Assembly (NCBI RefSeq): GCF_004168035.1
Contig: NZ_SDPU01000023.1
Location: forward strand, 124,001-188,000
Origin: Nocardioides iriomotensis
GTDB taxonomy: Bacteria; Actinomycetota; Actinomycetes; Propionibacteriales; Nocardioidaceae
Reading direction: 5' to 3'
DNA: 64,000 nucleotides
Under the pieces are notes generated by a model. That model was given only the letters and a program-made list of their open reading frames with translations, did not search any database and was not told the DNA's origin. Both the position numbers and the translations under genes were made by a program. Positions 12,764-57,702 of the stretch are shown in pieces (position 1 is the first letter of the stretch; the number at the start of each line of letters is the position of its first letter).

Positions 12764-14657
<1,894 letters not shown>

Positions 14658-14720: not shown

Positions 14721-15374
14721 ATGAGCGACCCCGACAAGGCTCCCGTCCGCGTGTACCTGCTCGACGACCACGAGGTGGTCCGCCGCGGCCTGAAGGAGCT
14801 GCTCGAGAGCGAGGGCGACATCGTCGTGGTCGGAGAGTCGGCCTCGGCCGCTGAGGCGACCCGCCGGATCCCCGCGCTGCGCCCGGACGTCGCGATCCTC
14901 GACGGCCGGCTGCCGGACGGGTCGGGCATCGACGTCTGCCGCGACGTCCGGTCGGTGGACCCGAGCATCGCTGCGCTGATCCTGACGTCGTACGACGACG
15001 ACGAGGCGCTGTTCGCGGCGATCATGGCGGGCGCGTCCGGCTACGTGCTCAAGCAGGTGCGCGGCAACGACCTCGTGGAGACCGTACGACGCGTCGCCGG
15101 CGGACAGTCGATGCTGGACCCGGCGGTCACCCGCCAGGTGCTCGAGCGGCTGCGCCGGGGGCCCGACGTCGACCCGGCGATCGCGCCGCTGACCCCGCAG
15201 GAGACCCGGCTGCTGGAGCTGATCGGGCAGGGCATGACCAACCGGCAGATCGCCGAGGCCATGCACCTGGCCGAGAAGACGGTCAAGAACTACGTCTCGG
15301 CCGTGCTCGCCAAGCTCGGTCTCGAGCGCCGCACGCAGGCGGCCGTGTTCGCCGCCAAGCACCTGCACGTCTGA
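14721..15374 (+). CDS. devR: DevR/DosR-like NarL-family response regulator
   Basis: 217 residues: receiver domain (phospho-acceptor Asp61 in AILDGRLPDGSGIDV, Lys in GYVLKQVRG) and C-terminal LuxR-type helix-turn-helix. The recognition helix AEKTVKNYVSAVLAKLG is almost that of M. tuberculosis DosR; Lys186, Lys189 and Asn190 equal the DosR DNA-contact residues 179, 182 and 183 after allowing for seven extra N-terminal residues. Phosphorylated by the kinase upstream, it should activate genes through GGGAC-type palindromes, of which the window holds more than 20. In M. tuberculosis the order is devR-devS; here it is reversed with a separate promoter. Confidence 0.93.
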   Translation: MSDPDKAPVRVYLLDDHEVVRRGLKELLESEGDIVVVGESASAAEATRRIPALRPDVAILDGRLPDGSGIDVCRDVRSVDPSIAALILTSYDDDEALFAAIMAGASGYVLKQVRGNDLVETVRRVAGGQSMLDPAVTRQVLERLRRGPDVDPAIAPLTPQETRLLELIGQGMTNRQIAEAMHLAEKTVKNYVSAVLAKLGLERRTQAAVFAAKHLHV

Positions 15375-30641: not shown

Positions 30642-30707
30642 GGGACGAACGTCCCCGCTCGACGTGGACGTTCGGCACTGAGCCCGCTCGTGCCAGACCG
30701 ACACCCT
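30642..30707 (+). promoter_or_regulatory. DevR-type promoter of small gene at 30,740
   Basis: Distal box GGGACGAACGTCCC (30642-30655, perfect arms), proximal box TGGACGTTCGGCAC (30665-30678), 23 bp, then CACCCT (30702-30707). Boxes are 23 bp apart. Confidence 0.7.
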
Positions 30708-30739: not shown

Positions 30740-30976
30740 ATGGCACAGGAACGACGGGACCGGACGAGAGGCCCGGTGTCGGTCGAGCACGAGCTGGCCC
30801 GGCTCGGCCGCGACGAGGTGCACCACCGGCAGGGAGAGCCGCCCGTGACGTGCCGCCACTGTGGTGAGCCCCTGGTCTGGGTGCCGGACGTGGGCTGGGT
30901 CGTCGACGAGCCGGCCGGCAGCTACGACCTGTGCGAGGGCGATCCCCTCGGCCTCCACGACCCGGGACCGGCCTGA
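30740..30976 (+). CDS. Small unrecognised protein with CxxC pair
   Basis: Not recognised. 78 residues: basic, charged N-terminus (MAQERRDRTRGP), then CRHCGEPLVWVPDVGWV and a single later Cys in YDLCEGDP. The CxxC plus Cys/His layout hints at a small zinc ribbon or a redox site. The ATG at 30740 has CAGGAG 8 nt upstream. It is monocistronic, convergent with the arginine deiminase gene 16 nt away, and has one of the best DevR-type promoters in the window. Confidence 0.7.
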   Translation: MAQERRDRTRGPVSVEHELARLGRDEVHHRQGEPPVTCRHCGEPLVWVPDVGWVVDEPAGSYDLCEGDPLGLHDPGPA

Positions 30977-30992: not shown

Positions 30993-32294
30993 TCACTCCA
31001 GGGGGTCGCGCAGGATCGGGCAGGTCATGCAGCGCCCGCCGCCCCGGCCGCGACCGAGCTCGCTGGCGTCGATCGTGATCACCTCGATGCCCGCCTTGCG
31101 GAGCAGGGTGTTGGTGTGGGTGTTCCGGTCGTAGCCGATGACCACGCCGGGCTCCAGAGCCACCACGTTGTTGCCGTCGTCCCACTGCTCGCGGCGGGCT
31201 CCGAACCCGTCGCCGCCGGTGGGGACCACGTGCAGCTCGACGCCGAGGGCGTCGCCCACGACGTCCACGAACGGCCGCCGCTCGACGGTGACGTTCATCC
31301 CGACCGGGCTCGCGTCGTCGCGACGGATGGTGAGGGTCCGGATCCGGTCGACCACGGGCGTGAAGGCGGTGACGACGTCGCGGTCGCAGAACGTGAACAC
31401 GGTGTCCAGGTGCATGGCCGACCGCGCCCGGGGGAGGCCCGCGACCACGACCCGCTCCGCGGCGTCGGCCTTGAACAGGCGACTGGCGAGCTGGGTGATC
31501 GCCTGCTGCGAGGAGCGTTCGCCCATACCGACCACGAGAGTGCCGTGGCCGACGGGCATGACGTCCCCGCCCTCGAGGGTCGCCGCCCCGTAGTCGAGCG
31601 GCTGCTGGTCGGGGTCGCCGAACCAGATCTCGAGGTCGTCGTGCGGGAACGCCGGGTGGAACCGGTAGACCGCGGCCGTGAGCAGGGTCTCCTGGCGGCG
31701 TGCCGGCCAGTACATCGGGTTGAGGGTGACCCCGCCGAACACCCACGAGGAGTTGTCCCGGGTGAACTGGGTGTTGGGCAGCGGTGCGAGCAGGAACGGG
31801 TGCTCCTCCTGCCCCCGCAGCGCGGCGAGGAACGTCCCACCGGCCTCGGCCGGAACCTCGGCGAAGGTGAGCCCGCCGATCAGGTGCTCGGCCAGCTGCG
31901 CCGGAGTGAGATCGTCCAGCCAGTGGCGGACCGGTTCCACGAGTCCGGCGCCGACCTGGTGCGCGGTGATCCTCCGGTCGAGGAGCCAGGCCCGCGCGGC
32001 CGGCTGGGCGACCACCTCGGTCAGCAGGTCCGACAGCTCCAGGACCTCGACGCCGCGCTCGCGCATCTTGTCGACGAAGTCGAAGTGGTCGCGCCTGGCC
32101 TGGCTGACCCAGATCACGTCGTCGAACAGCAGGTCGTCGCAGTTGTCGGGCGTCAGCCGCAGGTGAGCCAGCCCGGGGGAGCACACCAGGACGCGACGGA
32201 GCCGCCCGGCCTCGGACCAGACGCCCACCCGCGGGGCGGTGGTCGACGCGGGGGCGACCGGCGTCCCCGCCGTACGGACCTCGGCGGTGCTCAT
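30993..32294 (-). CDS. arcA: Arginine deiminase
   Basis: 433 residues of the guanidino-group-modifying family: [59 protein letters not shown] and the C-terminal nucleophile in [10 protein letters not shown] (Cys422). It hydrolyses arginine to citrulline and ammonia in the cytosol, first step of the arginine deiminase route that yields ATP without oxygen. The start at 32294 overlaps the antiporter stop by 4 bp; longer in-frame readings run through that gene. The other enzymes of the route, ornithine carbamoyltransferase and carbamate kinase, are not in this window. Confidence 0.93.
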
Positions 32295-33772
32295 ACCGTC
32301 ACGAACCCTTGGACGAGGCCGACGACCGCCGTGACCGCCAGGCCCACGACGACGAGGACCGGCCCGAGCTCGCGCCGGGTGAACGGCTGCTGACCGGTCT
32401 CGCGACGCGCCCAGACGAACAGAGCGGTGCCGACGAGGTAGAACAGCCCGGCCACCAGGACGTACTGCCAGCCGCCGGCGTAGACGAGCCAGACGGCGTA
32501 GGCGAGGGCCAGCCCACCGATGGCGATGTCGCGCCCGCGACCGGTGCCGTCGTCGTAGGTCTCGCCGGTCACGGCGAGCTTCACCTGGTAGGCGGCCGAC
32601 CACAGGTAGGGGAGCAGGATCAGCGAGGTGGCCAGGTAGACGAGGTCGGTGTAGGTGTTCTCGTTGACCAGCGTCCACAGCAGCAGCACCTGGATGCAGA
32701 GGTTCGTCAGCCACAACGCGTTCGCCGGTGCGCCGCGACCGTTCTCCCGACCGAGCGCCCGGGGCAGGACCCGGTCCAGGGCCGGCAGCCGCAGGATCTC
32801 CACCGCGAGCAGGACCCAGGCGAGGAGCGCGCCCAGCAGCGAGACGATCAGGCCGGCGGAGATGAACCCGGCGCCCCAGCTGCCGACCTCGTGCTCGAGC
32901 AGCCCGGCCATCGAGGGGTCGCTCAGAGCGGCGACGTCGGCCTGGGCGAGGAGCCCGTACGACAGCAGGTTGACGGCGAGCAGGAGGGCGAGCACGGCGA
33001 GGAACCCCACGACGGTCGCGCGGCCGACGTCGCGGCGACGACGCGCGCGCTGGGAGTAGACCGCGGCGCCCTCGATGCCGATGAACACCCAGACGGTCAC
33101 CAGCATCATGTTCCTGACCTGGTCCCACGTGCCGCCCAGGTCGCTCCCGGTGCCCCAGAAGTCCGCGGTGAACAGGCCTGCCTCGAACCCGACCGCGGCG
33201 ATCGCGATGAAGGTGACGATGGGGACGACCTTGGCGATGGTCACGACGACGTTCGCGAACGCCGCGTTGCGGACCCCGCTGAGGGTCAGGCCGTGGACGA
33301 CCCACAGCAGGACCGAGGCGCCGATGATCGCCGGCGCGGTGGTGCCGCCCTCGAAGCCGCCGAACCAGTAGCCGAGCGTGGCCATCAGCAGCACCAGGTA
33401 CGCGACGTTCCCGACCCACGCACTGACCCAGTACCCCCACGCGGAGGTGAAGCCGATGTACTCACCGAAACCGGCGCGGGCGTACCCGTAGACACCGCCG
33501 TCGACGTCCGGCTTGCGCCGCGCGAGGGTCTGGAAGACGAAGGCGAGCATGAGCATGCCGACCCCGGTGACCAGCCAGCCGATCAGCAAGGGCCCGGGGG
33601 CGGCGCTCCCCGCCATCTGCGAGGGCAGCGCGAAGATGCCGCTCCCGATCATCGAGCCGACCACGATGGCGATGAGTGCCGGAAGGGCGAGGCCGGTCGG
33701 CGGGGCGTCGGTACGGTCCTGGCGGGATCGGCGTGCCGTGCCGCGTCCGGGTCGGACGGCGTGCTGGGTCAT
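32291..33772 (-). CDS. arcD: APA-family amino-acid antiporter, arginine/ornithine type
   Basis: 493 residues with about 12 to 13 transmembrane helices and the APC signature near the N-terminus ([20 protein letters not shown]), plus [17 protein letters not shown] and [13 protein letters not shown]. Members coupled to arginine deiminase import arginine and export ornithine. The pairing with arcA, with a 4-bp overlap, supports this. The ATG at 33772 follows GAGGAGG; 31 upstream in-frame residues before it look like promoter DNA. Two DevR-type boxes precede it. Confidence 0.88.
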
Positions 33773-33799: not shown

Positions 33800-33895
33800 A
33801 CCCTGGGACGGCGAGCTCGCCCCGGAGCAGGGCCGCTTGGCCGCGCCGTGCGGGACCTTCGGCACTGAGCGGGCCCGCGCGCCCCCTCGGATGCT
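33800..33895. promoter_or_regulatory. Bidirectional DevR-type box pair between arcDA and ABC exporter
   Basis: Two boxes 22 bp apart at 33829-33842 and 33851-33864. Minus: GGCCAAGCGGCCCT then 23 bp to CAGGGT (33800-33805) for arcD-arcA. Plus: GGGACCTTCGGCAC (33852-33865) then 24 bp to GATGCT (33890-33895) for the ABC genes. Each box is proximal for one gene and distal for the other. Confidence 0.65.
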
Positions 33896-33925: not shown

Positions 33926-34687
33926 TTGACCGAGTCGCTGCAGTCACAGGTGCCCGTCGACGCCGATGTCTCGCCGGTGGTGTCCGCCCAGGGTCTGGTC
34001 AAGAGCTTCCGGCACGTGCGCGCTCTCGACGGCCTGGACCTGACCGTCCTGCCCGGGGAGGTGCACGGTTTCCTGGGTCCCAACGGGGCCGGCAAGACCA
34101 CGACCCTGCGGACCCTGCTCGGGCTCCTCCGTGCCGACGCCGGCGAGGTGCGCCTGTTCGGCGAGGACCCGTGGCGGGATCCCGTGGGGCTCCACCGGCG
34201 GCTCGCCTACGTGCCCGGCGACGTCAGCCTGTGGCCCAACCTCTCCGGCGGGGAGACCGTCGACCTGCTGCTGCGGATGCGCGGCCTCGACCCGGCCGCC
34301 GGCCGCAAGGACGAGCTGGTGGAGCGCTTCCGGCTGGACCTGACCACCCGGGCCCGGGCGTACTCGCGCGGCAACCGGCAGAAGGTCGCCCTGGTGGCTG
34401 CGCTGGCCGCGGACACCGACCTCCTGGTCCTCGACGAGCCGACCAGCGGCCTCGACCCGCTGATGGAGGAGGTCTTCCGCGAGTGCCTGGCCGAGCACCG
34501 GGCCCGCGGCGCCACCGTGCTGCTGTCCAGCCACATCCTCAGCGAGGTCGAACGTCTCGCCGACCGCGTCACGATCATCCGGGACGGCCGGACCGTCGAG
34601 TCGGGGACCCTCGCGAACCTCCGGCTGACCCGGCACGCGACGCCGGACGCGTCGCTGGAGGACTTGTTCCTGGCGGCGTACCGGTGA
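33926..34687 (+). CDS. ABC transporter ATP-binding protein
   Basis: 253 residues: Walker [11 protein letters not shown]-loop region [20 protein letters not shown], signature [16 protein letters not shown] (a variant of LSGGQ, typical of ABC-2 exporters), Walker [15 protein letters not shown], and the H-loop in [11 protein letters not shown]. It powers the membrane protein coded next. Start TTG 33926 has GGAAGGAG 7 nt upstream, better than any nearby ATG. The stop overlaps the next start by 4 bp. Divergent from arcD with a shared box pair. Confidence 0.9.
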
Positions 34688-36243
34688 CCGCGGCGACGGG
34701 CAGCGTGCTGCTGCTGCGGCAGCACCTCCGGCGCGACCGGATCATCGTGCCCGTCTGGATGGGCGCCCTGGTCCTGATGGCGTTCGCCTCCGCCAGCGCG
34801 ACGGAGACCCTGTTCGGCACCGTGCAGGACCGGGTGCGGATCGCGGCCCTGGTCAACGACCAGGCGGGGCTCGTGGCGCTGTACGGACCGATCCTCGACC
34901 CGCGCAGCGTCGGCGAGCTGGCGATGTCGAAGCTCACGGTGCTGTACGCGCTGTTCAGCTGCGTCTTGTACGTCGTCGTCGTGCGTCGGCACACGCGGGT
35001 CGAGGAGGAGTCCGGTCGGGCCGAGCTCGTCGCCGGCACGAGCACGGGTCGCAGCGCCCCGCTCGTCGCCGCCGTCGCCGAGGGTGCCGGTGTCGCGGTC
35101 GTCCTGGGGATGCTCGTCGCCGCGGCGGACGCGCTGGGTGGCCTGCCGGTCGCCGGGTCGCTGTGGTTCGGTCTCGCCTGGGCCGGCACGGGACTGGTGG
35201 CCACGGGAACGGCGGCGGTGGCGTGCCAGCTGTCGCCCAGCGCCCGCACCTGCGGGGCGATCGCCGCGGCCCTGCTGACGGGGGCGTTCGTCGTCCGCGC
35301 GCTGGGAGACGCCGTGGACCGCCTGCACTGGCTCTCCTGGTTCTCACCGCTGGGCTGGAACACTCAGCTCCGGGCCTGGTCGGACCCGCGCTGGTGGGTG
35401 CCGCTCCTGCACGTCGGCGTCGCCGCGGCCCTGGTGCTGGCCGCGCAGGGCATGCGGGCACACCGGGACCTCGGGTCCGGGCTGGTCGAGGCCCGACCGG
35501 GCCGTCCGGGCAGCACGATGGCGAGCCCGTGGAGCCTGGCCGTCCGGCTGCACCGCACCTCCCTGGTCCTGTGGACCGTGGGCGCCGCGACCATGAGCCT
35601 GCTGTTCGGAGCGATGGCCCCCGGGTTCGACGACCTGCTGAGCACCGGCGCCGGCCGCGAGCTGGTCGACCGGCTGGGCGGGGCGTTCATCGCGGCGCTG
35701 CTGCCGATCGCCGCGATGGCCGTGACCGCGTTCCCGATCTCCGTCGTCACGCGCGTGACGCGCGACGAGGCCGAGGGCCGCGCGGAGCTCGCGCTCACGT
35801 CCGGCGCGTCGCGCGCCCAGTGGTTCGCCGCGCCCGCCGTGCTCGGTGCCCTCGCGGCGACCTGGCTGCTGGCGGTCTGCGGCGTCTCGCTCTGGGCGGG
35901 GTACCGCGCGGCCGGTGGCGGCGCGACCACGCCGGCGCTCGCCGCGGCGCTCGGCTGGGCGCCGGCGGTCTGGGTGGTCGTGGGCGTCGCCCTCGTCGGC
36001 CTGGCCGCACGCGCGGGCTGGGTGGGGTGGGCCGCCCTCGTCGGCTTCGTGACGCTGACCCTGGTCGGTGAGCTCCTCGAGCTGCCCGACTGGCTGGTCC
36101 GGCTCTCGCCGTACTCCGCCCTCCCGGCGTACCCCGTCGTCGCCTGGGACTGGACGCCGTTCGCCGTCCTGGTCCTGGTCGCGGCGGCGCTGACCGCCGG
36201 TGCGGGCCGGTGGTTCGGCCACCGCGACGTGTCCGTCGGCTGA
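34684..36243 (+). CDS. ABC-2 type exporter permease
   Basis: 519 residues with about 12 helices in two similar halves, each starting with an amphipathic segment ([20 protein letters not shown] and [18 protein letters not shown]). It resembles the long actinobacterial permeases annotated as exporters of polyketide antibiotics or drugs, where one polypeptide carries both half-transporters. The GTG at 34684 overlaps the ATPase stop by 4 bp. The cargo is unknown; no biosynthetic genes are nearby. It ends 4 nt before the convergent C40 peptidase gene. Confidence 0.85.
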
Positions 36244-40097: not shown

Positions 40098-40185
40098 TGG
40101 TGTCCGAGGGGGGACTTGAACCCCCACCCTCTATACGAGGACTAGCACCTCAAGCTAGCGCGTCTGCCTATTCCGCCACCCGGAC
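40098..40185 (-). tRNA. tRNA-Leu (anticodon GAG)
   Basis: Minus strand, 88 nt with encoded CCA. Acceptor GTCCGGG pairs with CTCGGAC; anticodon arm CTAGC-TTGAGGT-GCTAG gives anticodon GAG, reading CTC; a long variable arm and the T arm GGGGGTTCAAGTCCCCC follow, as expected for a class II leucine tRNA. Confidence 0.95.
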
Positions 40186-53910: not shown

Positions 53911-54312
53911 ATGTCGCACACCCGCTCCACGCTTCGCATCGCCGCCACCGCGCTCACCGCGGCCGTCACCGTGCCGCTGCTGGTCGCCGGGCCGGCCCTG
54001 GCCAACGACGACGACGTGATCCGTCGTGGCGGCTGCAGCGGCGGCACCGACTGGAAGGTCAAGGCCAGCCCCGAGGACGGCCGGATCGAGGTCGAGGGCG
54101 AGATCGACAGCAACAACAACGGCCAGACCTGGCGCTGGCGGCTCAGGCACAACGGCAGCCTGTCCGCCAAGGGCACCGCGACGACGGGCGGCCGCAGCGG
54201 GTCGTTCGAGGTGCGCCGGGTGCTCGTCGACCTGAGCGGGCCCGACACTTTCGTGTTCCGTGCGCGCAACGTCGGCAGCGGCGAGGTCTGCCGCGGCACG
54301 GTCACCTTCTGA
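53911..54312 (+). CDS. Secreted small beta-rich protein, unknown
   Basis: Not recognised. 133 residues with a clear signal peptide (1-32: STLRIAATALTAAVTVPLLV, cut near ALA-ND). The mature part has two cysteines (GGCSGGTDW and GEVCRGTVTF) likely to form one disulfide, and a beta-sandwich-like pattern (GQTWRWRLRHNGSLSAKGTA). The ATG at 53911 has GGAGGACC upstream. It stands alone before the two-component genes. Confidence 0.75.
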   Translation: MSHTRSTLRIAATALTAAVTVPLLVAGPALANDDDVIRRGGCSGGTDWKVKASPEDGRIEVEGEIDSNNNGQTWRWRLRHNGSLSAKGTATTGGRSGSFEVRRVLVDLSGPDTFVFRARNVGSGEVCRGTVTF

Positions 54313-54400
54313 GCCGGAACACCGGTCGCGGCGCGGCCGGGCCGCGATACTGGCTGCTGCCCGGCCACCCGACGGGCTCGAGAGGGGAGGGCAGCAGCCG

Positions 54401-55678
54401 GTGCGGCTCCTGAGGTCACCCCTCGCGCAGTTCCTGCTCGCGGGCGCCGTGGTGGTCGTGGTGGTGTTCGTGGCCACCGGCCGGCTGAGCGGGTCCGCGG
54501 CGTCGGAGGAGGCGATCGACGACGCCATCGCGACCACGCGACTGCTCGCCCGCTCGGTGGCCGAGCCGGAGCTTCCGCGCGGCCTCGTCGACGGCGACGC
54601 CGCCGCGATCGACCGCTTCGACCGGGCCGTCCTCCGCAGGCTGCTCGTCGACGACGTGCAGCGGATCAAGATCTGGGACGAGGGCGGCACGGTCGTGTAC
54701 TCCGACGCCACCCGGCTCATCGGCCAGAAGTTCGAGCTGGACGAGGACGAGTGGGCGGTGCTCACCGGCGGGGGCGACGACGCCGAGGAGTCCGACCTGA
54801 CCAAGCCCGAGAACCGGTTCGAGCAGGGCCACGGTGGCCTGCTCGAGGTCTACACCCGGATCGAGTCGCCGGAGGGGAAGCCGCTGCTGTTCGAGGTCTA
54901 CTACTCCGCCGCCGACATCGAGGCCCGGCGGGCGGCCGTGTTCGCGGCGTTCCGGCCCATCACGCTCGGCGGGATCGCCGCGCTCGTGCTCGCCGCCGTA
55001 CCGCTGCTCTGGGTTCTGACCCGACGCCTCGACCGGGGCGCCCGCGAACGGGAACGCCTGCTCCGCGCCGCCGTCGACGCCTCCGACGCCGAACGGCGCC
55101 GGATCGCGCGCGACCTGCACGACTCCGTGGTGCAGGACCTCGCCGGTACGGCGTTCTCGCTGTCCGCCGCGGCCAAGGCCGGGGGAGCCCCGCCGGAGGA
55201 GCTCGCCCGGCTCGGCGGCTCCGTCCGCGGCTCGCTGCGCGGGCTGCGGTCGCTGCTCGTCGAGATCCACCCGCCCGAGCTCACCACGTCCGGGCTGCAC
55301 GCCGCGCTGGAGGACCTCGTCGCCGGCGGTGACGCCCGCGACGTCACCGGCGAGGTCGAGACCGGCGACCTGTCCGGGCTCGACGACCGGGGTGCCGCCC
55401 TGGTCTGGCGGGTCGCGCAGGAGGCCGTGCGCAACGCCCTCCGGCACGCCGACGCCACCCACGTCCGGGTGCGCGTCGACCGGGAGGGCGCCGCCACGGT
55501 GCTGGAGGTGGTCGACGACGGCCGCGGCTTCGACCCCGCGGCGGTCGCGCGAGCGGACGCCGACGGCAGCCACTTCGGCCTCCGCGGCCTCGAGAGCCTG
55601 GTCCGCGACGCCGGCGGCCGGGTCGAGGTTCGCTCCCGGCCGGGTGCCGGCACCACCGTCCGGATGGAGCTGGCATGA
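54401..55678 (+). CDS. NarL-type sensor histidine kinase with extracytoplasmic domain
   Basis: 425 residues: helix one (about 8-27), an extracytoplasmic sensor domain (28-185, with VQRIKIWDEGGTVVYSD and HGGLLEVYTRIESPEGKPLL), helix two, HisKA_3 with phospho-His in [20 protein letters not shown], and HATPase with QEAVRNALRHADAT and DDGRGF. The signal is unknown. The GTG start at 54401 has GAGGGGAGG upstream. Its stop overlaps the regulator start by 4 bp. Confidence 0.88.
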   Translation: MRLLRSPLAQFLLAGAVVVVVVFVATGRLSGSAASEEAIDDAIATTRLLARSVAEPELPRGLVDGDAAAIDRFDRAVLRRLLVDDVQRIKIWDEGGTVVYSDATRLIGQKFELDEDEWAVLTGGGDDAEESDLTKPENRFEQGHGGLLEVYTRIESPEGKPLLFEVYYSAADIEARRAAVFAAFRPITLGGIAALVLAAVPLLWVLTRRLDRGARERERLLRAAVDASDAERRRIARDLHDSVVQDLAGTAFSLSAAAKAGGAPPEELARLGGSVRGSLRGLRSLLVEIHPPELTTSGLHAALEDLVAGGDARDVTGEVETGDLSGLDDRGAALVWRVAQEAVRNALRHADATHVRVRVDREGAATVLEVVDDGRGFDPAAVARADADGSHFGLRGLESLVRDAGGRVEVRSRPGAGTTVRMELA

Positions 55679-56334
55679 GCGGTCGTTCGTCCCCGTCCGG
55701 GCACCCCATCCGGGTCGTGCTGGTCGACGACCACGCCGTCGTGCGCACCGGCCTCGCGCAGCTGCTCTCCGGCACCGACGGCATCGAGGTGGTCGGCACC
55801 GCCGGCGACGGCGCGGAGGCTCTCGAGGTCGTCCGGGAGACCGGTCCCGACGTGGTGCTGATGGACCTGCAGATGCCGGGCACCGACGGGGTCGCCGCGA
55901 CCCGCGCGCTCCGGGCCGAGGGGCTGCCGGCCCAGGTCCTGGTGCTGACGTCGTACTCCGACGGCGACCGGATCATCGCCGCCCTCGACGCCGGCGCGGT
56001 CGGGTACCTCCTCAAGGACGCCGAACCCGACGAGGTCCTCGCCGGCATCCGCGCCGTCGCCCGCGGCGAGTCTCCGCTGCACCCCCGCGCCGCCCGCGCC
56101 CTGCTGAGCGCCCGCCGGCCGACCCCCGCCGAGGCCGAGGACGCGTCCGTCCTCACCGTGCGCGAGGTCGAGGTGCTGCGTCTGGTGCGGCAGGGGCTCG
56201 CCAACAAGCAGATCGCCCGACGCCTGGGCATCACCGAGCGCACGGTCAAGGCGCACCTGACGTCGGTCTTCCAGCGCCTCGGCGTGGCCGACCGGACCCA
56301 GGCGGCGCTGTGGGCGGAGCGGCACGGGCTGTAG
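55675..56334 (+). CDS. NarL/LuxR-family response regulator
   Basis: 219 residues: receiver domain with phospho-acceptor Asp in DVVLMDLQMPGTDGVAATRA and Lys in GYLLKDAEPDEVLAG, then LuxR HTH LTVREVEVLRLVRQGLANKQ and ITERTVKAHLTSVFQRLGV. The recognition helix (ERTVKAHLTS) differs from that of the DevR-like protein in the island (EKTVKNYVSA), so its target sites should differ. It is translationally coupled to the preceding kinase. Confidence 0.9.
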   Translation: MSGRSSPSGHPIRVVLVDDHAVVRTGLAQLLSGTDGIEVVGTAGDGAEALEVVRETGPDVVLMDLQMPGTDGVAATRALRAEGLPAQVLVLTSYSDGDRIIAALDAGAVGYLLKDAEPDEVLAGIRAVARGESPLHPRAARALLSARRPTPAEAEDASVLTVREVEVLRLVRQGLANKQIARRLGITERTVKAHLTSVFQRLGVADRTQAALWAERHGL

Positions 56335-56421
56335 GGCGCATGGGCGGTAAGGCGTCTTTACCCGTTTTGCTCCGCAGACCCCGTCCCAGCCGTCACACTC
56401 GTCACGTCTGGGAGGAGGCGA

Positions 56422-57702
56422 GTGGTGCGCGTGCTCAAGAACCCGGTGGCGCAGTTCCTCGCCGCCGGGATCGTCATCGTGACGGCGGTCGTGTTCGTCT
56501 CTGACGCGCTCAGTCACCGGGCTGCCGAGCGGGAGGCCATCGCCGACGCGCGCGCCACGACCGAGCTGATGGCCAAGGCCATCGCCGAACCGCTCGTCCC
56601 GCCTGGCCTGGCCTATGGCAGCCACAGCTCCGCACGATGGTTCGGCGCCCAGATTGGCGACCGCCTGAAGGTCGACAACGTCGAGCGGGTCAAGATCTGG
56701 AACTCCTCGGGCAAGATCGTCTGGTCCGACCAGGCCGAGCTGATCGGAGACGAGTTCACGCTGAGCGAGAGCGCCCGCGAGGTGCTGGCCAGCGGCCGTT
56801 CGGAGGGCGAGCTCTCCGACCTGCGGCGACCGGAGAACCACTACGAGGTCGAGGACAACGGACTGCTGGAGGTCTACACGAGGATCGACGCCCTCGGTGA
56901 GCCACTGCTCTTCGAGGTCTACTACTCCGAGCAGGACCTCGAACGGACCACCGCGGTCGTCCTCGACGCCTTCCGGCCGATCACCGTCGGTGGCGCGCTG
57001 GCCGTCGGGCTGCTGACCATCCCGCTGCTGATCGGCCTCAACCGCCGGCTCGGCCGCGCGTCCGATGCCCGCGAGAGGCTGCTCCGGGCCGCCGTCGACG
57101 CGTCGGAGGAGGAGCGCCGCCGGATCGCCCGCGACCTGCACGACGGCGTCGGCCACCGGATCCGCGAGGCCGCCGACGCGGTCGCCGCCGAGGCGGTCGA
57201 CCTGACCACGCCGCCGCGGACGGCCCGCAGGCTGCAGGACGTCGACGACCGGCTGCGCGCGACCGCGGAGTCGGTGCGCTCGCTCGTGCTCGACATCTAC
57301 CCGCCGGACCTCGACGCGTCCCGGCTCGGCGACGCCCTCGACGACCTGGTCGCCCCGGCCGCGGACGCCGGGCTGGTGGTCAAGGTCGAGGTCGACGACC
57401 TCGGCACGACCTCCGACGACGCCGTGGCGCTGGTCTGGCGGGTGGCCCGCGAGGGCGTGCGCAACGCCCTCCGGCACGCCCGCAGCACGTCACTCGCCGT
57501 CAGCGTGCACCGTTCGCGCTCGGCCCTGGAGCTGCGCGTGGTGGACGACGGGGTGGGCTTCGTGCCGGGAGCGTTCCGGCAGGCGGACCGGTTCGGGCTG
57601 CGCGGCCTGGAGGACCTCGCCGCCGAGGCGGGCGGCAGCCTCTCGGTGTCGTCCGGCCCGGGTCGCGGGACCGTGCTGACCCTCCAGGTGCCCACCGCCT
57701 GA
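56422..57702 (+). CDS. Paralogous NarL-type sensor histidine kinase
   Basis: 426 residues with the same plan as the kinase at 54401: helix, extracytoplasmic domain (shared VERVKIWNSSGKIVWSD and NGLLEVYTRIDALGEPLLFE), helix, HisKA_3 with [20 protein letters not shown], and HATPase (REGVRNALRHARS, DDGVGF). In place of the usual Gln after the phospho-His the sequence has GVGHR, a variant that may alter kinase/phosphatase balance. It has its own promoter gap of 87 bp and ribosome site GGAGGAGG before GTG 56422. It probably signals to the regulator between the two kinases. Confidence 0.85.
   Translation: MVRVLKNPVAQFLAAGIVIVTAVVFVSDALSHRAAEREAIADARATTELMAKAIAEPLVPPGLAYGSHSSARWFGAQIGDRLKVDNVERVKIWNSSGKIVWSDQAELIGDEFTLSESAREVLASGRSEGELSDLRRPENHYEVEDNGLLEVYTRIDALGEPLLFEVYYSEQDLERTTAVVLDAFRPITVGGALAVGLLTIPLLIGLNRRLGRASDARERLLRAAVDASEEERRRIARDLHDGVGHRIREAADAVAAEAVDLTTPPRTARRLQDVDDRLRATAESVRSLVLDIYPPDLDASRLGDALDDLVAPAADAGLVVKVEVDDLGTTSDDAVALVWRVAREGVRNALRHARSTSLAVSVHRSRSALELRVVDDGVGFVPGAFRQADRFGLRGLEDLAAEAGGSLSVSSGPGRGTVLTLQVPTA

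Follow-up and report, generated by a model that had tools for sequence, protein, structure and literature searches.

A putative divergent DosR-type promoter between arcD-arcA and a multidrug-type ABC exporter in a Nocardioidaceae genome

The window is the whole stretch of DNA that was analysed, 64,000 nucleotides from a member of Nocardioidaceae. Within the window, the arginine genes arcD and arcA are transcribed divergently from the two genes of an ABC exporter. The intergenic region between arcD and the exporter is 153 bp long and holds two DosR/DevR-type boxes that are 22 bp apart. The genes and sites under discussion are listed below.

12840..14657, plus strand: DosS/DosT-like GAF-GAF histidine kinase gene (best PDB matches are GAF domains of the DevS/DosT kind)
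14721..15374, plus strand: DosR/DevR-like response regulator gene, 217 aa (best PDB match 3c3w, DevR of Mycobacterium tuberculosis, 229.7 bits; next match VraR, 145.2)
30993..32294, minus strand: arcA, arginine deiminase (TIGR01078, 496.2 bits against a cut-off of 489.1)
32291..33772, minus strand: arcD, arginine-ornithine antiporter of 493 aa (TIGR03810, 641.5 bits against a cut-off of 591)
33800..33805, minus strand: CAGGGT, candidate -10 of arcD-arcA, 24 nt from the weak box core
33830..33843, minus strand: weak (secondary) DosR-type box CGGCCAAGCGGCCC, arcD-proximal (16-mer form 33829-33844)
33852..33865, plus strand: strong (primary) DosR-type box GGGACCTTCGGCAC, exporter-proximal (14.8 bits; one of 22 genome-wide pattern sites)
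33890..33895, plus strand: GATGCT, candidate -10 of the exporter, 24 nt from the strong box core
33926..34687, plus strand: exporter ATPase gene, 253 aa, TTG start with AAGGAG upstream (best PDB match Rv1218c, 6.7e-91)
34684..36243, plus strand: exporter permease gene, 519 aa (Rv1217c, 8.7e-76, the sole PDB sequence at E 0.1 or better)

Both arcD and arcA scored above their NCBIfam cut-offs, as expected from the identities given to them in an earlier sequence-only reading of this DNA. The arcA gene was scanned as 30993-32240, without its first residues. The start at 32294 was taken from the open reading frame listing, and with this start the ATG of arcA overlaps the stop codon of arcD. Arginine fermentation had also been proposed; the operon consists of arcD and arcA only, and the pathway is incomplete here. 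The arcB and arcC of locus L030, used as queries against the window at E 1e-10, gave no match, and arcC is found elsewhere in the genome (C13:337584) with arcB beside it (L161). Four arginine deiminase paralogues are encoded in the genome (G000; C16, C21, C13, and C26). Besides the focal gene there is one accompanied by an arcD paralogue, another accompanied by arcB and arcC, and a fourth at 40%. Five upstream stretches from the other arc loci of the same genome were scanned, and no box of at least 10 bits was found in them.

The permease and ATPase genes of the exporter are adjacent, and their best PDB matches are the 8k1m-8k1p chains (8k1m and 8k1n). This makes the exporter homologous to the multidrug efflux pump Rv1217c-Rv1218c. 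The best NCBIfam match of the ATPase is drrA, which falls below the cut-off (172.4 of 312.45 bits). The exporter had been described as an export system of unknown cargo; its type is recognisable after all, and the part of the description that concerns the cargo stands.

The kinase gene is located directly upstream of the regulator gene, and both genes are 18-21 kb from the boxes. The PDB matches of the kinase are 2vzw (4.8e-52; listed as a probable histidine kinase, which we take to be DosT), DevS 2y8h (1.7e-42), and DosT 3zxq (9.6e-23). The neighbouring genes encode universal stress proteins, PPK2, P-type ATPases, a nitroreductase-family protein, a CBS protein, a TreT-like glycosyltransferase, and a dehydrogenase E1 pair. 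Judged by its homologies, the gene set around the regulator is a DosR-type island, and the likely ligand of the boxes is the regulator encoded at 14721..15374. The DosR/DevR type of the regulator is supported by a homologue and a DosS-like kinase encoded within the same window. Four sequence features expected of a DosR regulon promoter were found, namely the regulator, the GAF kinase, at least one upstream consensus box, and a fixed distance between the proximal box and a -10 candidate.

Two other sets of related genes were observed. Another DosR paralogue, which shares 72% identity with the island DosR, is encoded at G000:C13:73059-73691, near universal stress protein matches at C13:71537-72286. 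A second NarL-type two-component set occupies 54260-57702 of the window (plus strand), where two histidine kinases flank one response regulator (55675-56334).

The two boxes had been placed at 33829 and 33851, 22 bp apart, and both are present, with 14-mer cores at 33830-33843 and 33852-33865. The single box pair of the sequence-only reading is therefore real, but its boxes are unequal in strength, a point that was absent from that reading. The strong box scores 14.8 bits against a matrix made from 12-13 window boxes that were picked by eye, at least three of them inside genes, and from which the strong box itself was excluded. Seven sites of at least 14.8 bits, the focal one included, are found at positions 1-40000 of the window, none at 40001-64000, and none among 51,372 positions taken from three other genomic regions. 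The corresponding numbers for sites of at least 13 bits are 13 (focal site included), none, and none. Boxes above 11 bits in the window span 2467 to 33852. The pattern GKGACNWWSGKCMC has 28 occurrences genome-wide, which correspond to 22 distinct sites, and the reversed control has 4. Ten of the 22 distinct sites, the focal one included, lie within 31.4 kb of the window (C16:126467 to 157865), and the remaining 12 lie outside the island. The pattern that discriminates (28 occurrences versus 4) has A/T at its centre. The pattern GKGACNNNNGGNCC is barely more frequent genome-wide than its control (196 versus 180), and the loose pattern GGGACNNNNGGNCC, with one mismatch allowed, shows no excess in the window (77 found versus 89.7 expected).

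The weak box scores 1.6 bits with the island matrix, and 0.94% of 75,359 off-island positions score as high. It agrees with the published OsdR consensus AGGGCCGATCGGCCCT at 12 of 16 positions, an agreement found in a fraction of 9.3e-5 of the 75,351 off-island positions, and the strong box agrees with the same consensus at 11 of 16. At the homologous position, alignment of the upstream DNA of loci L014, L015, and L094 gives boxes of 7.6, 9.3, and 7.3 bits. The low matrix score had raised the possibility that the weak box is spurious; this was dropped after the orthologue alignments and the match to the OsdR consensus. The repeat search gave one GC-rich palindrome adjoining the boxes. The Rfam scan gave no match at the box site and only one tRNA (40101-40185).

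The hexamers CAGGGT and GATGCT are present where they had been reported, but the distances of 23 and 24 claimed for them are both 24 nt when counted from the box cores. The claim of correct spacing holds, as this distance is at most 1 nt off that of other island promoters and of arcD orthologues. The motif nAnnnT is found at exactly 23 nt in 6 and at 24 nt in none of the 19 other island box-directions, which were partly hand-chosen. The genome-wide count covers all 22 sites in both directions (44); nAnnnT occurs six times at 23 nt and at most three times at any other of 37 spacings, and the single match at 24 nt is the focal exporter direction. By chance, nAnnnT at 23 or 24 nt is expected in about 3.4% of cases. 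It is unlikely that both focal matches are due to chance, which is not decisive by itself. The arcD -10 candidate is convincing because of the orthologue data given below, in which 13 of 18 upstreams have nAnnnT at 23-24 nt. No promoter passes the sigma-70 consensus scan, and the sigma-70 and terminator scans were uninformative for this site.

A second box pair, 23 bp apart, was observed at 30642-30678, with CACCCT 23 nt downstream of its second box. It precedes an open reading frame of 78 aa (30740-30976, plus strand) that has a CxxC motif and lies tail-to-tail with arcA. The NCBIfam search with this open reading frame gave no match.

Usable upstream DNA was obtained for 107 ArcD homologues, of which 43 have at least 66% identity and 64 are more distant. 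The summed two-box score of the 43 orthologues exceeds that of shuffles most at spacings of 21 and 22 bp (7.2 and 6.8 bits), and the excess at other spacings is 1.3 to 4.2 bits. The excess in the 64 distant homologues is at most 0.4 at any spacing. The 43 orthologues were reduced to 40 distinct upstreams by removing 3 duplicates, and their start codons were placed by homology. A pair of at least 9 bits is present in 18 of the 40 (L013 and L094 were counted by a pair other than the presumed arcD pair) versus 3.45% of 2,000 off-island windows. The motif nAnnnT is found at 23 or 24 nt in 13 of these 18 upstreams, and 11 of the 13 hexamers are TAGCGT, all from Mycobacterium or Mycolicibacterium records. 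The binomial figure for 13 of 18 (1.5e-15) is not a probability, since these sequences share ancestry and most of the hits (11 of 13) come from mycobacteria. The pair is spaced by 22 bp in both Nocardioides RYN210 (L014) and N. islandensis (L015), where the hexamers at 24 nt are AAGAGT and AAGCCT, respectively. The other 22 of the 40 distinct upstreams have no pair of at least 9 bits with this matrix. Two of these 22 upstreams (L101 and L102) come from genomes G044 and G130, which encode a DosR homologue at 71-72%, yet their best pairs score only -1.0 and 4.0 bits. Also among the 22 are loci L097-L099, in which a strong box lacks a good partner, and this single box is the one with a nearby -10.

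The neighbourhood of arcD was surveyed in 45 loci with near-copies kept, 5 of which have less than 1.2 kb upstream. The exporter is divergent to arcD in none of the 40 other loci with at least 1.2 kb upstream, and adjacency of arcD and exporter was rejected as a conserved trait on this count. The arcA gene follows arcD on the same strand in 37 of the 45 loci, as at the focal locus. An arginine deiminase gene is divergent to arcD in 6 of the 40 loci, four of them distinct (L013 and L095 are near-copies, as are L015 and L096; the others are L014 and L094), and the encoded deiminase has about 40% identity to the focal ArcA. The divergent genes of N. terrigena (L013 2566-5749, minus strand) are arcA, then arcB, then an arcC-type kinase gene; a further box was observed there nearer the arcA side. 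On the arcD side the box pair is thus old, with a facing partner that changes.

Exporter orthologues were searched in 294 family and 393 class genomes, which are overlapping sets. The orthologue set was drawn from the matches listed, at most 30 loci per search; the focal locus and loci without the ATPase or with fewer than 150 bases upstream were excluded. The closest orthologue found is L123 (from G054; 64% for the permease and 80% for the ATPase). It has GGGACCAAGGGCCC 45 bases before the homology-derived start, with AAGACT 23 nt after the box. This locus adjoins an aldehyde dehydrogenase gene, and no arcD is found on its 8.1-kb contig. Among the matches listed, 31 orthologues have at least 45% identity; 5 of them have a pair of at least 9 bits, L123 has its single strong box, and 25 have no box by the cut-offs used. 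Orthologues below 45% among the matches listed have a pair in 2 of 31. The pair of L146 has TAGGCT at 24 nt. Four of the six boxed orthologues (L128, L129, L151, and L162) have TAGCCT exactly 40 nt downstream, which is a different geometry; in these four the boxes are 23 bp apart and TAGCCT sits close before a GTG. The genomes from which L123, L128, L129, L151, and L146 come (G054, G202, G186, G272, and G101, in that order) each encode a DosR homologue at 75-77%.

The motif and its reversed control were also counted in 14 relatives. Six genomes with a DosR homologue at 72-80% (G054, G147, G199, G248, G261, and G288) have 30-49 motifs versus 1-6 in the control. The counts are 10 versus 4 in G094 and 3 versus 7 in G118, where the best DosR homologues are at 40% and 36%. 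Small excesses were found in G005 (14 versus 6) and G004 (6 versus 2) despite a DosR homologue at 83%; both assemblies are incomplete. The motif counts of G007, G008, G017, and G020 are 16 versus 7, 7 versus 3, 13 versus 7, and 3 versus 4. Motif abundance follows regulator presence in the first eight of these genomes.

The divergent DevR promoter of tgs1-Rv3131 in M. tuberculosis was reportedly described by Chauhan and Tyagi in 2009. We consider it probable, from the sequence comparisons and by analogy with that promoter, that the focal region is a divergent DosR promoter of the same kind with new gene content, and that it would switch both sides. This two-way reading is favoured because of the DosR and DosS homologues in the window, the specificity of the strong box, the pairs of arcD orthologues, the genome-wide peak of nAnnnT at 23 nt, the motif counts that follow the regulator, and loci L123 and L146. 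It is weakened by the 22 of 40 upstreams without a pair, the poor score of the weak box, the adjacency in 0 of 40 loci, the few boxed exporter orthologues, the small motif excess in G005 and G004, the sigma-70 scan without a match, and the focal distances that are both 24 nt where the six other island matches are at 23 nt. Our confidence in it was lowered slightly because of G044 and G130 and because both halves are needed. The arcD half appears well supported by the homologous upstreams and the exporter half moderately so, and the joint switch would be specific to the focal lineage as far as sampled. The compact bidirectional switch of the sequence-only reading survives in its box pair, regulator type, gene identities, and -10 distance; its transcription starts and the co-induction of the exporter are what we infer.

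Other explanations would account for parts of the same evidence. The pair may serve arcD only, in which case the exporter landed alongside with another promoter and GATGCT at 24 nt is a chance match. The adjacency in 0 of 40 other arcD loci with enough flank, the 3.4% of cases in which nAnnnT is expected by chance at 23 or 24 nt, and the 25 of 31 exporter orthologues without a box by the cut-offs, among the matches listed, are compatible with this. However, the exporter-proximal box is the strong one, a perfect box, followed by a -10 candidate at 23 nt, belongs to the closest exporter orthologue found, and the AAGGAG site would fit in a short 5' leader; we regard exclusive service to arcD as unlikely. 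We give still less credence to the view that only the right box is functional, that the left one is a GC-rich chance occurrence, and that arcD is activated from 46 nt or not at all. The 1.6 bits of the left box and the single-box upstreams of L097-L099 speak for this view. The left box nevertheless matches the OsdR consensus at 12 of 16 positions, the homologous boxes of relatives score higher, the -10 is placed from the left box, and the lone box in L097-L099 is the -10-proximal one.

The boxes might also be bound by another NarL-family regulator, which would be compatible with the other readings. Half-sites may be common to related regulators, and two further candidates are encoded, the second DosR paralogue (72%, G000:C13:73059) and the window regulator at 55675-56334. 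The concentration of pattern sites (10 of 22) in the island where the gene for the closest DosR homologue lies argues against another regulator; this clustering is not exclusive, as 12 of the 22 sites are outside the island, and we hold such a regulator to be improbable. One further reading, speculative but conceivable, combines an asymmetric timer made from the unequal pair with the lineage-specific rewiring of an ancestral divergon. The exporter would fire from the strong box at low DosR~P, and arginine use would need full cooperative occupancy. An ancestral arcA-arcB-arcC operon facing arcD, as in N. terrigena, would have given way to arcA behind arcD, and a drug-type exporter, likely a DosR target elsewhere, would have taken the place facing arcD.

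The two-way reading can be put as a sequence of steps. Judged by homology, the DosR-like regulator would be phosphorylated by the DosS/DosT-like kinase when oxygen is low or the respiratory chain is reduced. DosR~P would occupy the strong right box and then recruit a second dimer to the weak left box, which is two helical turns away. Each box would adjoin a polymerase at the -10 on its side, 24 nt off, the strong box on the exporter side and the weak box on the arcD side. The products of arcD-arcA would bring arginine in and ornithine out and make citrulline and ammonia, and induction would extend simultaneously to the exporter, which is of the Rv1217c-Rv1218c multidrug type. By analogy, the exporter side would be the readier one and the arcD side the more cooperative one. 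The sequence features, their rarity, and the conservation of the arcD half were observed directly, and DosR binding, induction, and the exporter half of the switch are inferred.

A promoter layout that is conserved in Nocardioides-like and Mycolicibacterium genomes would tie the use of arginine deiminase to the DosR hypoxia programme. The exporter data suggest that an Rv1217c-type efflux pump may be a DosR target in some actinobacteria. The recurrent distance of 23-24 nt between box and -10 can serve as a rule by which DosR promoters of GC-rich actinobacteria may be predicted. The promoter kind is already known, and no description of this gene content was found in the open literature searched.

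Anaerobic arginine metabolism by arcA in M. tuberculosis was reportedly described by Surken in 2008. According to a review table, Rv1217c is among the genes upregulated in a model of hypoxia with lipids, and arcA among those upregulated in a different dormancy model (PMC8044303, in part). In M. abscessus, drrA, a daunorubicin-resistance-type efflux subunit, is among the hypoxia-induced, putative DosR-dependent genes, and in the available part of that report it belongs to a large cluster with an mce operon and is not beside arc genes (PMC10034137). A drrA family is also the best NCBIfam match, below the cut-off, of the focal exporter ATPase, and the nearest precedent is drrA among those putative DosR-dependent genes (PMC10034137, in part). 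None of the cited reports on arcA, Rv1217c, and drrA shows DosR control of arcD-arcA or of the focal exporter. No statement that links arginine deiminase or an Rv1217c-type pump to DosR was found in the main-text passages of the open literature searched.

OsdR of Streptomyces coelicolor is a DevR orthologue with a palindromic GGGCC-type box that is close to the focal weak box, and its regulon, as the focal region, has divergent targets, with an EmrB/QacA-type transporter among the predicted ones (PMC5069765, in part). The words arginine, deiminase, and ABC are absent from the main text of that paper (PMC5069765). The narK2-Rv1738 region is similar to the focal region in its divergent transcription from shared DevR sites and differs from it in having four DevR sites where the focal region has two (PMC7018068, in part). 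The focal region differs from tgs1-Rv3131 in its genes, arcD-arcA and an ABC exporter, and in its Nocardioidaceae host. At tgs1-Rv3131, DevR binds the primary site and is cooperatively recruited to the adjacent secondary site, an unbound secondary site goes with the lack of aerobic Rv3131 expression, and the TSP-proximal site overlaps the -35 (PMC3029386, in part). The two divergent genes of tgs1-Rv3131 share a high-affinity site and an adjacent site that is cryptic, of low affinity, and bound cooperatively (PMC3029386, in part). The focal region resembles it in having divergent genes and a strong box, and the focal weak box, poor with the island matrix but good with the OsdR consensus, is the candidate counterpart of the cryptic site.
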